DNA from: Monosiga brevicollis MX1
Lineage: Eukaryota > Opisthokonta > Choanoflagellata > Craspedida > Salpingoecidae
DNA: 40,580 nucleotides
Direction of reading: 5' to 3'
Assembly (NCBI RefSeq): GCF_000002865.3
Contig: NW_001865046.1
Span: forward strand, 815,039 to 855,618
Shown piece after piece: positions 4,126 to 38,965 of this stretch. The first letter of the stretch is position 1, and each line of letters opens with the position of its first letter. Below the pieces are notes generated by a model. That model worked only from the letters and a program-made list of their open reading frames with translations. It ran no database searches and was not told the DNA's origin. Position numbers and translations under genes: made by a program.

Positions 4126-7100
4126 ATGGCAGCGCTCAAGATGATGCTGCTGATGGCAGTGGCGGCCTTTGGGGCGGTGGCGCTCGCTGATCGTCCGTGG
4201 ATGCAGGATCCAAAGGTGCGGGGCTGAGGAGAAGGACGAAATGGGTTCTGTTTGAAGCGTATCGACGTGCGATCGGCTTTTGCTCACATGCTGCCAACGT
4301 GGCTGGCCGCTGCCAAGCAGGCCGATCCCGAACAGCGGGCCCAAGCTTTGCTGGATCAGATGACCCTGGATGAGAAGATCTTGATGCTGCACGGTAGCAG
4401 TGGCCCCTATGTGGGCAACGTGCCGGCCAACACTCGCCTTGGCATTCCCGCCCTCAACCTCAATGACGGTGAGATCATTGGCCATTCAAACCGCTCGCGC
4501 TCAGTGGCCAATGCATGCGATCGTCCCTTGGTCGTGGTGTTATCTCTCCCAAAAGCGTTTTTGTGGCTCATCTCTTCCCTCTCTTGCTCCTCCGCGCAGG
4601 TCCTCAGGGCTTCCGCCCCGCCACGGACCTGGCTGGCACCTCGACCGCCTTCCCCTCGGGTCTCACCGTGGCGGCCACCTGGGATAAGAACCTGACATAC
4701 GCCTGGGGTGCGGCCATGGGTACTGAGTTCTGGAACAAGGTGAGCACACTGCCACGCATCTTCCTTTGAATGATTGGCGGGGAGACGGCGTTGGTGTTCT
4801 GGCTTCTGGCCTTCCTTTGCAGCTGCAAGGACTGCAAGATTTCGAGGTCTCTGATCCACTTCAAATGTTGTAGGGCTCAAATGTTCAGCTCGGTCCGGGC
4901 GTTTGTGTCGCCCGCGTGCCCGTCAACGGCCGCAACTTTGAGTACGTGCAAGCAGCTCATCTGCTGCTCTGTGTCTTTTAGTGGACTCAGCGCGCTCATC
5001 GATTCTTGCTTGTGATCGGCTAGGTATGCCTCAGGCGAGGACCCCTTCCTTGGTTACACCATCGTCCAGCCGGCCATCAAGGGCATCCAGGACCAAGGCG
5101 TCATTGCCAATGTGAAGCATTACGTCCAAAATAACCAGGTACCAGACTTGTCCCCCTCGCCTTCGTGAAATCAGGTACGCTTCTTGGGCTCACACAACCA
5201 CTGCTTTGTGCTCTGGTGCCATCAAGGAAACCAACCGCCAAACCGTGAGCGAGAACGTGGACGAGCGTACGCGCTTTGAAATCTACTACCCACCCTTTGA
5301 GGGTGCGTTTGAGGCTGGGTAAGCTGCGCCACTTGCACCGCTTTACAGTGCCAATCATTTGTGGACCCTCCAATCTCCCAACCGTCTTCTGACATCATGC
5401 TTTTTCCATCTCGGTTGCAACTCATCGTGTTTTGGCTTTGTTGGGATGCCCATGTTTTCTGTGCCATGCTTGCCACGGGTCGCGCTTGGGTGTGCAGTGT
5501 GGGCTCGCTCATGTGCAGCTACAACAAGATCAATGGCTACTGGAGCTGTGAGAACAACCAAACGCTTGGCACTGATCTCCGCGTCCACCTTCTCAAGGGC
5601 CAGCGTCTTTGGGTCATGAGGTTGGTCGCAGGATGATGCTCTCAAACTCTCAAAGCCGGCTGGCTGCCCCAGAGGTCCTCAAATATGGGTGTGTACTCAA
5701 CAGCTTGTTGTTGTGTTGCCACGGTGACGCAGCGATTGGGGTGCCACGCACTCTACTTCCATCATGCAGGGGTTGGACCAGGAGATGCCGGGTGGCAATT
5801 TTATGGGTGACACTCTGAAGAGCATGGTGGTCAATGCCAGCATCCCCGAGTCGGCCGTCAACCAGTCCATCCTTAACATTCTGGTGCCCATGTTTAGCGT
5901 GGGGCTCTTTGATCGCCCCAACAACAACAGCATCACTGCCAACGTGACCTCGGATGCCCACAACGCCGTGGCCCGGGAGCTGTCTGCGGCTTCACACGTC
6001 CTCTTGAAGAACGAGGGCGACTTGCTTCCCCTCGATCGCTCTTCGGTCAAGACCATTGCCGTCATTGGCGCCCAGGCTGCCACCAACACAATTGTGCACG
6101 GTGGTGGTTCCGGCCAGGTATACCCCCCCTACGTCATCACACCCCTGGGTGGGCTCATGCAGGCGCTGGGGATCAGCGGTCCCAAGAAGGTGCCTTGTGA
6201 TCAGGGCCAGCGCTTCAACAACACTGACTTTTACCAGCCCAACAACCCCTCAGTGGCGGCGAGCGACGCCGATGACTGCTGCGCCAAGTGCTCGGCCAGC
6301 GCTTCGTGCCTTGTCTGGTCGTTTGCCAAGTCCTCATCGACCTGCTACTTCAAGCAGCACACCTCCACCCCGAGCAATGACAACAATGTGGACTCTGGTG
6401 TGTTGTCGTCCGCAGGCCTCAACGGACCCTTTTGCAACGACCAACAGCAATGCATCTACTACAGCGATGGATCCAACCTCACCGAGGCCGCCGAACTGGC
6501 GGCCAAGGCTGATGTCGCGCTCGTTGCTGTGGCGACCACCTCGTCCGAAGGCTCGGACCGCGCAGACCTCTCCCTCGGTAACGGTCAGGACGAACTGGTG
6601 ACCATGGTGGCCGCGCACCAGAGCAACACCATTGTCCACATCACCTGCCCAGGTGCCGTGCTCACGCCTTGGCGCGAGGACGTCAAGTCTATTTTCGTGA
6701 GCTTTATGGGTGGCCAAGAGCTTGGTAACGCCATGGCTGACGTTATCTTTGGTGAAGTCAACCCCTCGGGCCGCCTGCCCCTCACCTTTCCCAACGTCGA
6801 GAACGAGATTGGCATGACGACTCGCCAGTACCCAGGCCTTGACAATGGCCTCGAAGCCTACTACGACGAAGCCCTGCTGGTCGGTTACCGCTGGTACGAC
6901 CACCATGCCATTACCCCGGCCTTCCCTTTTGGCCATGGTCTCAGCTACACCTCCTTCGAGTACAGCGACATCCAGGCCTCGAAGACTTCCGTCTCCGTGA
7001 CCGTTACCAACACGGGTTCAAAGGCTGGCGCTGAGGTGGCACAGCTGTACCTCGGTTTTCCTTCCAGCGCTGGTGAGCCGCCGCGCCAATTGAAGGGCTT

Positions 7101-7278
7101 TGAAAAGGTCGTCCTTGCTCCTGGTGCCAAAACCACCGTGACCTTTGACCTGCGCCCCCGTGATCTCTCGATTTGGGATGTCAAGCAACACGCTTGGAGC
7201 CCCGTTTCTGGCACCTTTGAGGTTGCCGTGGGTGCGTCCTCCCGGGATATCCGCCAGACGTCGAGCTTTGACAACTAA
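4126..7278 (+). CDS. Secreted glycoside hydrolase family 3 (beta-glucosidase/xylosidase type) with Apple/PAN-like insert
   Basis: GH3 enzymes remove terminal beta-linked glucose, xylose or similar sugars. The model has eight exons: 4126-4215, 4321-4468, 4600-4739, 4874-4941, 5024-5138, 5227-5318, 5498-5620, 5733-7278. It encodes 773 aa with all phases consistent. A signal peptide (MAALKMMLLMAVAAFGAVALA) precedes LLDQMTLDEKI. Typical N-domain blocks follow: LGIPALNLNDGPQGF, NVKHYVQNN and MSDWGATHS, whose Asp (codon 5734-5736) is the expected nucleophile. The C-domain has the acid/base motif EGSDRADLSL and QDELV. A fibronectin III-like tail ends the protein. A Cys-rich segment at about residues 419-494 (DDCCAKCSASASCLVW...CYFKQH) looks like an Apple/PAN domain inserted within the C-domain. 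Substrate cannot be told from sequence. Confidence 0.92.
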
Positions 7279-10532: not shown

Positions 10533-11768
10533 ATGGGCCGTCCTTCGGTTCAGTTGCTCCTGCGAGCGTTTGAGCATGGCGACGAAGAGCAGATCGAACG
10601 GTGTGTATGTCACCAGCCTCTCCACTGAATCCGCCTTGCAGCTCAGTTGGGCTTGCCACTTTTATTCTTGGGTCCATCAGACTGACAGCGGCATCGGTGC
10701 TCTCAGGTTGCAGAAGCGTGTATTCAAGCCGTCATTTCAAGCCTTGGACGAGGTGGGGCCAGAAGGATCAACGCTATCGTGACTCGGTCGCAAATGTCGA
10801 AGCAGCCTTTCACTTCTCGTGGCATAATTAGAACGGCAACACGGCGCTACACTGGGCAGTGGTTGGCAACAAACTGCCGTTGGTGCGCCTTCTCTTGGAA
10901 AAGGGCGCAGATCCGGCCCGGCCCAGCAAGGTACGAGAGCACGGGAGCGAATGTGCCACTGCGCCTTGCTTTCTCGCATCCTCATCACACGAGACCTCTC
11001 ATCTTGCACAAGTACAATTGGCCGGCGTTTGTGCCTAATGTTTGGCCCAAACGTGCGTTTGTCGGGTCCGGCAGAACGGAGACACGCCTGTACACTGGGC
11101 TGCGCAATTGGGCCGGGATGCTGTCTTGCAGCTGCTGATGGCCCGCTCCACACGCATGGTTGAAGTCGTGGGTCAGTCTAACAAGCAGCTTCACAGTCGA
11201 TGCTCCACATGGCACCCAGCATGCGTTGGCTCATCTACTTGCGTCGGCCCAACCTCGTTTGAACTTGATGTTCATCTTCTTGCCTGTGGAACCCTTCAGG
11301 TCGTGGTGGTCAACGTGCACTGCACCGGGCAGCCCTATACGGTCACGTCCGTGCCGTCAAGCTTTTGCTTGAGGCTGGGGCTGACATTGACCCTCGCGAC
11401 GAGGTGATCGCTAGCTTGCCGCTCGGAAACCCTTTGGGCTCACTCAAACGACCATAGAGCGCTGGTAGATGGTACTGACGGCTGTATATCTTCTGCATTC
11501 ACAGGCGGGACGCACCCCTCTTCACCGGGCAGTACAAGCAGGCTACGAGCAGGCGACCCGAGCACTGTTGGAGGAAGGAGCTGATGTGAATGCTGCCGAT
11601 GAGCGCGGGAATACGCCGGCTCACTTGGCCGCTGGGCGCGCTTACGGCGACATTATGGAAATTCTCCAAGACGCTGGGGCACAGTTAAGCCTGGAGAACC
11701 GGGCAGGCAAGACCCCACTGACAGCCAGTGAACAGGCTCCACCAACCACAGTACGTCAACCGAGTTAG
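10533..11768 (+). CDS. Small ankyrin-repeat protein
   Basis: Six exons (10533-10600, 10714-10786, 10832-10930, 11075-11171, 11300-11403, 11505-11768) encode about 234 aa. After a short helical N-terminus (MGRPSVQLLLRAFEHGDEEQIE) come five clear ankyrin repeats with consensus cores NTALHWAVVGN, DTPVHWAAQLGR, RALHRAALYGH, RTPLHRAVQAGY and NTPAHLAAGRAY, then a partial sixth (GKTPLTASEQ). Exons 3, 4 and 5 each encode one repeat. Ankyrin repeats mediate protein-protein contacts; no catalytic domain is attached, so the partner and function are unknown. Exon 2 is less certain because its peptide (SVYSSRHFKPWTRWGQ) has no repeat character. The stop at 11766-11768 is used if the GTACGT just before it is not a donor. 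Confidence 0.78.
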
Positions 11769-12304: not shown

Positions 12305-12494
<190 letters not shown>

Positions 12495-12495
12495 G

Positions 12496-12617: not shown

Positions 12618-15539
12618 ATGGTCGGTGGCAGGGACGGGCGCTTGCTGCGATGGATTGTGGTCTTGATTGGTGTGCTTGGCTTTGCCATGGAGACATCTGG
12701 CGCAGTGCAGTTGCCCAACATCTTCTCCGATAACATGGTGCTGCAGCACGAGAAGGGCTCGGGAAGTCTCGCCTACGTCTATGGCTGGGCCTCGCCCGGC
12801 GAACGCGTCACCGTGGCGCTCCCCCAGAGCAACTACTCTACCATTGCCGATGCCACCACGGGCAAGTGGAAGGTGACGCTCGGCCCGCTTGAGCCCACGG
12901 CTAACCCTTTTACGTTTCTTGTGAGCGGGGAAACCGGTCCCCCCGTCACGGTGGCCAACGTGACGGTCGGTGAGGTGTACCTGTGCTCAGGGCAAAGCAA
13001 CATGGAATTCCCACTCAACATTGCCACCAACGGCACCTATGAAATGGCTGATGCTGTCAATTGGCCTCAGTTCCGACTCTTTCGTGTCAGCCACAACACG
13101 GCCGAGACAGAAGTCCGCAATGTCACTGGCACCTGGGCGCTCAACGCACCGGATGTAGCCGGTGCCTTTAGTGCGCTGTGCTACCTCACAGCACGCGATG
13201 TGCAGCGCCTGCGCAACAGCAGTATGCCTGTTGGTCTAGTCCAAGTTACCTGGGGAGGCACGCGCGTGGAAGCCTGGATGTCCAAGGAAGCCCTTGCTGC
13301 GTGCCCAGCAGCCCCTGCATGGGGCACCGGCTCGTCCCCGCAGAATCAGCCCACGGCCCTATGGAATGGCATGGCCGCCCCGGTTATTGAGATGACTTAC
13401 CGCATGGCGCTGTGGTACCAGGGGGAGACCAATGCGCAGGGCGCCAATTCCACCGACTACTACGCTTGCATGTTTCAGAGCATGATCGCCGACTGGCGAG
13501 GTCGGGCTGGATACGGCGACCTGCCATTCCTCTACATGCAGTTGCCACCGTCCCTCTTGCCCACAGATCCCGCCAACATCACAACGGGCTACTCGGAGAT
13601 CCGCCAAGCTCAGCTTTTGACGCTTCCTCACACGCGTGGGCCCTCTGACACAACTGGCATGGTCGTCGGCCTGGATCTCGGCGGCGTGTCAATGTGGGGC
13701 CCTGTGCACCCTCCTGCCAAGAACGTGATGGGACAGCGCATGGCCGCCCAAGTCTTGCACGTGGTCTACGCAGAGCAGGAACAGTGGAACGGCACTTTGC
13801 GTTTTTCTGGCCCCGTGGTCACGAATGTGCGCCGCTTGAGCAATGGTACCCTGGCTGTCATCTTTGCCGACTGGAGCGCCCAAGGCCTGTACTTCAATGG
13901 TACCCTCAACTGCACCACCTGCTGCCCCTCACCCTCCTTTGAGGTCCTGTCCCCTGACCAGAAGGGCGCGCCAAGCTGGCAGCATGTTGATGCCACCATC
14001 AGTGGAAGCACTGTGCTGCTCGCCACCTCGGGTGGCTCGGCCGTGCGATACGGGTGGCAAGATTATGTGCAATGCGCGTTGTATAACGTTGATGCCCTCC
14101 CAGCCTCGCCCTTTATCCTCAACGTTTCTACCACCGCAAAGCTCAGCTCATCGACTGCACACCACAGCTGGCGCAAAGCTGGGCTGACGCGCACGCCAAC
14201 TACATCCCGCCCTTACGCCACTCCCCTCGTTCGACCACCGTAAGTGTCCCGGCTCTCGCCTCACAATCCCTTTGTTGTTCGTCGCACCAATCTCCTTTCA
14301 ACACACGTTCACACGCCATGACCTTGGTTTGCATGTTCACATCATCCTATCCCGGCCAATATTACTAGGATGGGCTTTAACACATGGAACGCATATCGGT
14401 GCAACCTCGATGAGAACATTGTGCGCAGCATGGCGCAGGCCATGCAGCAGCGTGGCCTCCAAGCAGCTGGCTATACGTACGTGAACATTGATGACTGTTG
14501 GCAGGTGGCGCGCCAAGCCAACGGCACCCTCGTGCCGGACCCTGTTCGCTTTCCATCGGGCATGACCGCACTGGCCGAGGATCTGCATGCGGCAGGTTTT
14601 GGCTTTGGTGTTTACACAGCTCGAGGCACGGGAACTTGCCAGGGACGGCCCGGCAGTCTCGAACATGAGCGCATCGACGCCGCCACGTTTTGTGATTGGG
14701 ACGTGGACTACGTCAAAATCGACGTGTGCGAAGGTGCACAAGATGCCAACGCCAGCTGGACCCAGTTTCACACCGGGTTTGCTGACTGCTACGCACAAAA
14801 GAATCATTCGATTGTTATGAGTGTGGAAACATGCGGTGATCCCAATGGTTGTGGAACTTGGGTGGCTGGGCTTGCCAACCTGTGGCGGACGAGCCCAGAC
14901 CTCGAAGCCACCTTTGCCAGCGTCTTGGCCAACGCCTATGCCAACGATGCCATGGCTGCCGTGGCCAAACCTGGCCACTACAATGACCCAGATATGCTCG
15001 AGGTGGGCAACCCGGGTCTTGATGCCGACGAAGCTCTCTCGCACTTTGCCCTATGGTGCGTCATGTCTGCCCCGCTCCTCATTGGCACGGACTTGATACG
15101 GGCGAGCAACAACACGTTGGCCATCCTGTCCGCACCCGAGTTGATTGCGATCGATCAAGACCTGGGCTACAACAACGAACCCCAAGGTCGCCACGTGTCG
15201 GCTGCTACACCAGCAGGCACCAACGTCTCGTGTTGGCTCAAGCGCCTGGCTTCGGGCAGCTCTTACGCCTTGATTGTGGTCAATGAAGGGGAGAGTGCCG
15301 TGTCGGACGTAAAGATCGAGGTGGGTCTGTTTGATTGCTTTCAGGTTCAGCCATGTTCCGCCTCACCCGCCTTTCCTGCTGCGCGGCCACCCTAGTTTGC
15401 GAGCTTGGGCCTACCAAACAGCCAATCTGTGACTGTGCGTGATATGTGGGCTCGTAAGGATGTCGGTACCTTTGATGACAACTATACGGTTGATTCTCTG
15501 CCTCGCCACGGCTCCGCTAGCTTGTTGCTAAAGGTGTAG
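12618..15539 (+). CDS. Fusion: sialate O-acetylesterase (SIAE-like) plus GH27 alpha-galactosidase
   Basis: Three exons (12618-14239, 14369-15320, 15396-15539) encode about 905 aa. A signal peptide (WIVVLIGVLGFAMETSGA) precedes an SIAE/SASA esterase of about 500 residues with the SGNH serine motif CSGQSNMEFPL (Ser127) and LWYQGETNAQG. The first exon stays open to a CC|GTAAGT donor and joins in phase to an exon starting exactly at the GH27 domain, giving LVRPPMGFNTWNAY, the usual GH27 opening. GH27 motifs follow: YVNIDDCW, DYVKIDVCE (nucleophile Asp, about residue 659), WRTSPDLEA (acid/base Asp, about 718), GHYNDPDMLEVG and MSAPLLIGTDL. The last exon supplies the beta-sandwich end (VTVRDMWARKDVG). 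The GH27 part has no signal peptide of its own. The esterase may act on sialic acids or on acetylated plant or microbial glycans. Confidence 0.85.
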
Positions 15540-15705
15540 CCTCCTGCTGACCACCTGATATCCAGTCTTCGGGGCCAAGCTCTCCGTTGTATTATTTTTT
15601 CTTAGATAAATTCGAGGTTGTCTGTTTCTGTCAGGTTCTTTCAGGTGCTGATCTCGGGGGCCGACCAGCTTTGCATTTGAAGGCAGAGAGGGTCGTTTGT
15701 TGCAT

Positions 15706-16334
15706 CTAGGTGTGACGGTAGCGGTCGTATGGGCCGTAAACATTGCCCTCGAGGTGGTGACGCCGATTCTGAGGCGGCTGGGCGTCCATTTGCTTTTCTT
15801 GAAGGGATTCCAGGCGCCATGCCGCATAGCGATGGAGCAAGGACCGGTTGATGACCTGAGCAGGTGTGCACAAGGCAAACAGGCGCGGCATCAGCCGAAA
15901 GCAGGCCAAGAATTCATTTGTTGGTATTCAAAGGAATCAAATGACAAATCAATAACCTTGATCACGAGAGCAATGCCCAAGACTGGCGGTAGAATAATCA
16001 GCCAGTAGTGCCAGGGCAAGTCCGGTAACACAACAGAGAGGTACTTCCAAAGCAGACAGGCGATGGGCAGGGGAGTGAAACCTGAAGACCGCAAGCCGTA
16101 TCGGACGTGAGGACGAAGTGGCGCAAAGATGAAAGGCGAGACGAGACTCGAATTGTACTCCGCGCACGACAATTGCTTACCCAGACGATACTCCAGTTTC
16201 CGAGAGCGCAGAGGGGCGCTCAACTCTTGCCCCTCGACAAGGTCGCGGCAGAGCTGTGCCTCAAAGTCATGAAAGACACTGGTGGGCATGTCGTTGAACC
16301 TAAAGCGATGCATCAAACGAAAAATGAGATCCAA

Positions 16335-36649: not shown

Positions 36650-38965
<2,316 letters not shown>

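Follow-up and report, generated by a model that had tools for sequence, protein, structure and literature searches.

A predicted SIAE-GH27 fusion gene with an ancient paralogue in the choanoflagellate Monosiga brevicollis

Glycosidases of family GH27 work through an aspartate nucleophile and an aspartate acid/base, surrounded by a DD pair, a lysine, an arginine and a tryptophan. A loop of the C-E-W type is taken here to read the 2-hydroxyl, or more generally the 2-position, of the sugar. Work on the human enzymes GLA and NAGA reportedly established that the C-x-W loop determines whether the enzyme takes a 2-hydroxyl or a 2-acetamido sugar, and NAGA is said to carry a small Ser/Ala pair there; a PDB title on this theme reads "Interconversion of Human Lysosomal Enzyme Specificities". 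For the sialate O-acetylesterase SIAE, an excerpt of one study names S127, T132 and H377 as the catalytic residues of the human enzyme (PMC8319020). Relatives of SIAE are, by name, not limited to sialate, as 9h4u is named carbohydrate esterase FI8. No description of SIAE and GH27 in combination was found in the open papers searched.

The window, which is the whole 40,580-nucleotide (40.6-kb) stretch of Monosiga brevicollis DNA analysed here, contains a gene in which both families follow one another on the forward strand. Its features are as follows.

12618..14239, + strand: exon 1, with a hydrophobic leader at about residues 1-28 (by eye), the SIAE/SASA esterase and the linker (spliced model, Pfam, PDB SIAE-like chains)
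12972..13550, + strand: Pfam match to SASA, residues 119-311 (53 bits, cut-off 24.8)
12996..12998, + strand: Ser127 of GQSN, predicted esterase nucleophile (aligned with GQSN of PDB SIAE chains)
13707..13709, + strand: His364, predicted esterase base (aligned with the His of HP in the PDB SIAE chains)
14127..14234, + strand: linker, residues 504-539, Pro/Arg-rich and little conserved (from where the SIAE match ends, at 504, to the GH27 start at 540)
14240..14368, + strand: junction intron, GTAAGT...TAG, 129 nt, phase 2 (spliced model; paralogue counterpart L011:4657-4761)
14369..15320, + strand: exon 2, beginning at MGFNTWN and encoding the GH27 catalytic barrel
14721..14723, + strand: Asp659 (KID), predicted GH27 nucleophile (Asp in 80/80 bacterial relatives)
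14826..14837, + strand: residues 694-697, ETCG, occupying the place of the 2-position loop C-x-W-G (paralogue: ESCS)
14898..14900, + strand: Asp718 (SPD), predicted GH27 acid/base (Asp in 80/80 bacterial relatives)
15321..15395, + strand: second intron, phase 0 (same position in the paralogue)
15396..15539, + strand: exon 3, last part of the C-terminal beta sandwich of GH27, with the stop codon (Melibiase_C 826-902)

When spliced, the three exons (12618-14239, 14369-15320 and 15396-15539) give a stop-free frame of 905 amino acids that runs from the leader through the esterase and linker into a complete GH27. The Pfam matches to SASA (residues 119-311), Melibiase_2 (540-805) and Melibiase_C (826-902) all exceed the curated cut-offs. 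Exons 1 and 2 join in frame to read ...VRPPMGFNTWN, so the in-phase join between PP and MGFNTWN proposed in the initial annotation is borne out. The donor at 14240, GTAAGT, is the sole GTRAG within 14101-14380, and the acceptor before 14369, TAG, is the sole YAG within 14231-14420. That annotation had also described the esterase exon as open to its CC/GTAAGT donor, which is correct; the frame does not continue open into the intron, where an in-frame TAA (CCG TAA, 14241-14243) lies inside the donor itself; left unspliced, the message would yield the 541-aa esterase by itself. The predicted structure of exon 2 (pLDDT 87.1, from 34 sequences) has its first strand starting at residue 2, which leaves the GH27 part without a spare N-terminus; a separate GH27 would thus start on that strand.

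Several other elements were observed in the window. A long (GT)n tract at about 12357-12495 ends some 120 bases before the start codon of the fusion gene, and a short ankyrin-repeat frame lies further upstream at 11469-11765. Positions 5731-7275 hold an exon of GH3 type, in whose GH3 C-terminal domain a PAN domain is matched, and a MyTH4-RhoGAP protein is encoded in one open frame at 37012-38907 on the minus strand, with a WW match just below its cut-off.

A Munc18 exon of the genome (39.5 Mb, 57 contigs) is identical at 54/54 residues to PDB 2xhe_A, a protein of M. brevicollis. Further SASA loci were sought in this genome exon by exon in six frames (E <= 0.001), a search by which divergent or split exons could be missed. 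Two loci were found, the window gene and C50:785862-786254, and both run on into GH27; no third SASA locus was detected at this threshold. The GH27 exons of the second locus lie 1.4 kb downstream, and the model of this paralogue (L011:2361-6802) comprises 16 exons, one intron having a GC donor in its present form, with the same domain order as the window gene. The two proteins are 57% identical across 898 columns, and the paralogue keeps the esterase Ser and His. Its junction intron (L011:4657-4761) interrupts the same residue in the same phase, between RPP and MGFN. Of the paralogue's 15 introns, two are present in the window copy, namely the junction intron and the last one. Read unspliced, the paralogue meets a stop at the fifth codon beyond the junction, and the window gene at the first.

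Synonymous divergence between the copies is saturated (dS by NG86 2.7 overall); pN/pS amounts to 0.42 over 467 esterase codons, 0.33 over 364 GH27 codons and 0.77 over the 28 linker codons that align (39% identity). Both domains of the fusion are thus under purifying selection. Saturated dS together with low pN/pS indicates an old duplication that preserved both domains and the join between them. Like the gene model, the paralogue and the GH27 catalytic residues, this selection is read directly from the sequence.

Grouping of 22 matches gave eleven GH27 loci in the genome, nine of which are non-fusions. At six of these nine, an ATG and a hydrophobic leader precede the GH27 start motif in the same open frame, while the remaining three (L014, L015 and L016) were left unclassified; leaders, here and in bacterial GH27s, were judged by eye. 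In both fusions the esterase occupies the place of the leader and the GH27 part has no ATG and leader of its own, as had been noted for the window gene from its letters alone. Because an old fused copy shares the junction intron, no third SASA locus was found in the search, and leaders are present at six of nine other GH27 loci, the window almost certainly holds one fused gene. The proposal of a single gene joining an SIAE-like esterase to a GH27, as put forward in the initial annotation, is therefore upheld by the spliced model, its domains and a paralogue of the same order and junction intron.

Exon 1 aligns with seven PDB SIAE-like chains at E values from 1.6e-42 to 8.5e-51, so that its place in the SASA family rests on the Pfam profile as well as on full-length similarity to solved SIAE structures. 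Ser127 (GQSN) and His364 (VHP) match the catalytic Ser and His of the PDB SIAE chains. In the alignment to these chains, the fusion has Pro where bacterial chains have the Asp of DIHP, and the place of Thr132 of human SIAE is likewise Pro by alignment, as it is in 7kmm. Both catalytic sets had been considered intact at the outset; this holds for the GH27 set, and for the esterase it extends to the matched Ser127 and His364, with Pro at both of the third-residue places compared.

The GH27 part matches Melibiase_2 over profile positions 2-284 of 284 with 192 bits (cut-off 23) and Melibiase_C with 51.4 bits (cut-off 22.9), i.e. over the whole domain and above the curated cut-off, which places it in GH27. 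For comparison, a scan of bacterial and archaeal genomes yielded 162 confirmed relatives, found via the peptides QSMIADW and MGFN[TS]WN, of which the best 80 were retained, with matches over the GH27 part. Both fusions and 80/80 of these relatives share Asp659, Asp718, the DD pair, the Lys, the Arg and the tested residues of NDPDM, and the Trp of DDCW is present in both fusions and in 78/80. The C-x-W-G loop differs. Among the 80 bacterial relatives, its Cys is present in 78 and its Trp in 75, with Asn (44/80) or Glu (25/80) between them; the fusions read ETCG (window copy) and ESCS (paralogue), and the E-[ST]-C arrangement is absent from all of the best 80 of 162 bacterial loci. Neither fusion carries the C-E-W loop of alpha-galactosidases (EC 3.2.1.22), and by our reading of the alignment an alternative placement of the gap would not restore Glu and Trp. 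At the Glu position the paralogue has Ser and the window copy has Thr, but the rest of the loop differs; the fusions do not clearly fit either the GLA or the NAGA pattern. Because the 2-position loop is replaced in both copies, plain alpha-galactosidase activity is doubtful, and the activity first given to the GH27 part, alpha-galactosidase, is not supported. The altered loop may instead reflect a new substrate specificity.

Several bacterial phyla frequently carry relatives of both fusion parts, and in the bacterial samples SIAE and GH27 were seen only as separate frames. Among the best 80 of 162 bacterial loci, no GH27 frame contained GQSN, and the SIAE part gave no match better than E 0.021 (L043). 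Whole-genome searches were carried out with an alignment of the two fusions. All candidates were scored in 12 + 4 genomes, and the large searches covered 387 genomes (two candidates scored per genome), 395 (E <= 1e-75), 297 and 200 (E <= 1e-80). Among the matches listed for these sets (12, 4, 387, 395, 297 and 200 genomes) there was no stop-free frame spanning both domains. With only 2-4 candidates per genome scored in the large searches, most of them at strict E cut-offs, a rare fusion in bacteria may have escaped, as may further domains in some GH27 frames of more than 1000 aa. Viral contigs gave no match to the fusion. At first the combination had not been known as a described eukaryotic protein; none was found in the bacterial samples or the open papers searched, and the sequence comparison behind this statement covered bacteria, archaea and viruses.

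In the 395 Bacteroidota genomes (E <= 1e-75), two of the nine listed matches, in G596 and G476, span both domains with two stops apiece, so that at this strict cut-off SIAE and GH27 adjoin in 2/395 of the genomes sampled. In both, an esterase frame is followed on the same strand by a GH27 frame, 21 and 45 nt apart when counted from the first Met. The G596 locus (L105, G596:C1:214500-226500) carries on one strand genes for an N-acylglucosamine 2-epimerase, a BNR sialidase-like protein, a GDSL+SASA esterase, the GH27, a GH20 and a GH92, and looks like a sialoglycan-degrading locus. No such set of sialidase, GH20 and GH92 types was seen around the second pair (G476), where the Pfam scan covered the pair itself. 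In a tree whose eukaryotes are the fusions and two plant rows only, the fusion GH27s group with Bacteroidota L034 and L035 (support 94/96, long branches), in which the C-x-W-G loop reads SISDFG and thus also lacks C-x-W (L034:8001-9083, L035:6748-7830). A derivation of the fusion from the sampled Bacteroidota pairs L105 and L106 was rejected, as its GH27s group with L034/L035 instead.

Taken as a whole, we favour with modest confidence a fused, secreted or endolysosomal digester of O-acetylated glycans. One gene would give one protein, in which the N-terminal SIAE-type esterase would strip O-acetyl groups and the linker would tether it to a retaining GH27 glycosidase that removes a terminal alpha-linked galacto-type sugar. 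GalNAc or another 2-substituted sugar would be a likelier GH27 target than plain galactose. The pair would act on O-acetylated glycans of food or surroundings, with the esterase unblocking the chains and the glycosidase, together with separate sialidases, then trimming them. Both domains are very probably active, given the GH27 catalytic residues, the esterase Ser and His, and the purifying selection. Secretion would follow from the leader of exon 1, judged by eye; like it, the two activities and a joint substrate are inferred.

Sialoglycans are the leading guess for this substrate. An excerpt of one survey reports five NEU1 sequences in M. brevicollis and retrieved no sialyltransferase (PMC3431349). 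According to an excerpt of a second paper, no sialyltransferase-related sequence was found in Choanoflagellata; its methods list M. brevicollis among the organisms with identified sequences, which sits badly with the stated absence (PMC5811610). With no sialyltransferase reported in choanoflagellates, the sialoglycans would be foreign. A BNR_2 scan of the genome gave six sialidase-like matches at four places (our own grouping). The reported sialidases without sialyltransferase and these loci are what put foreign sialoglycans first, and the L105 grouping of sialidase-like, SIAE, GH27, GH20 and GH92 genes points the same way. Against this, the L105 and L106 GH27s are not the nearest branch of the tree, and the adjacency occurs in only 2/395 sampled Bacteroidota genomes at the strict cut-off. 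The breadth of names among SIAE relatives, the GH27 loop type absent from the best 80 of 162 bacterial loci and the Pro at both third-residue places of the esterase also count on that side. Digestion of foreign O-acetylated sialoglycans is thus a plausible but tentative reading of the sequence evidence, somewhat short of probable.

In the main alternative, a real fusion could have an O-acetylated plant, algal or bacterial polysaccharide as its substrate, deacetylation then letting the GH27 remove alpha-linked side chains. The generic carbohydrate esterase among the PDB SIAE-like chains, the frequency of relatives of both parts in bacteria of several phyla and the GH3 gene upstream in the window are consistent with this, as are reports in which sialylation is absent or unconfirmed in choanoflagellates. 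The 2-position loop, however, speaks against plain alpha-galactose, one bacterial pair adjoins a sialidase-like gene, and sialidase-like loci exist in the M. brevicollis genome. We regard a polysaccharide substrate as possible, if on balance rather less than probable. The junction intron could furthermore act as a switch, a retained intron giving free esterase and a spliced one the fusion, i.e. two enzymes from one gene. The stop at the first unspliced codon past the junction in the window and the fifth in the paralogue would fit such regulation, and so would the fact that this intron is one of only two shared with the paralogue's fifteen; a stop soon after a donor is nevertheless common by chance, and a regulated pair would be improbable. 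Least credible are two neighbouring genes, a single-exon esterase ending at TAA 14241-14243 and a leaderless GH27 from the Met at 14370: the stop just past the donor does give a complete 541-aa frame and bacterial relatives are seen as separate frames, but the paralogue has the same order and its junction intron coincides in residue and phase, the GH27 would begin on its first strand without a leader, unlike 6/9 other GH27 loci, and the donor is a GTAAGT, which occurs five times on the + strand of the 40.6-kb window, while the absence of AATAAA and ATTAAA throughout 14201-15900 is neutral, since both are absent after the GH27 stop too.

Returning to the fused digester of O-acetylated glycans, both of its parts are known families, and their eukaryotic combination would be the new element. 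A eukaryotic fusion fixed as two ancient copies in a relative of animals suggests that de-acetylation and alpha-sugar removal are coupled on one substrate. If that substrate is a foreign sialoglycan, the gene offers a handle on why a choanoflagellate reported to have sialidases and no confirmed sialyltransferase keeps such machinery. More speculatively, and in our view unlikely, the two old paralogues could form a eukaryotic family of tethered O-acetylesterase-GH27 enzymes that lost the galactose-reading loop, gained a new pocket and jointly degrade an O-acetylated 2-substituted alpha-glycan that neither domain handles alone; sialylated mucin-like chains capped with GalNAc would be an example. 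Naming the protein after its Pfam entry (Alpha galactosidase A) would probably be misleading.

Compared with known systems, the esterase keeps the Ser and His of SIAE (SASA, PF03629; PDB 8f9q, 8f9r, 7kmm, 9ega). Residues 37-504 of the fusion match 20-499 of the form of about 500 aa (8f9q) in one piece, whereas with the chains of about 640 aa (7kmm, 9h4u, 9ega) the alignment falls into two pieces, on either side of a stretch that the fusion lacks; unlike SIAE generally, the fusion esterase continues into GH27. With the GH27 alpha-galactosidases and alpha-N-acetylgalactosaminidases (PDB 1uas, 6f4c, 1ktb, 3h53) the fusion has the whole barrel, the C-terminal sandwich, the nucleophile and the acid/base in common, and it differs from them in the ETCG/ESCS loop, in an N-terminus joined to the esterase and in the lack of a leader of its own. 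The Bacteroidota loci L105 and L106 present the same two families in the same order and on the same strand. There, in contrast, the frames are separate, the GH27s have their own leader (by eye) and both read CEWG; furthermore, the L105 esterase bears an additional GDSL lipase domain, unlike the fusion, and the L106 GH27 frame stops within its C-terminal domain.
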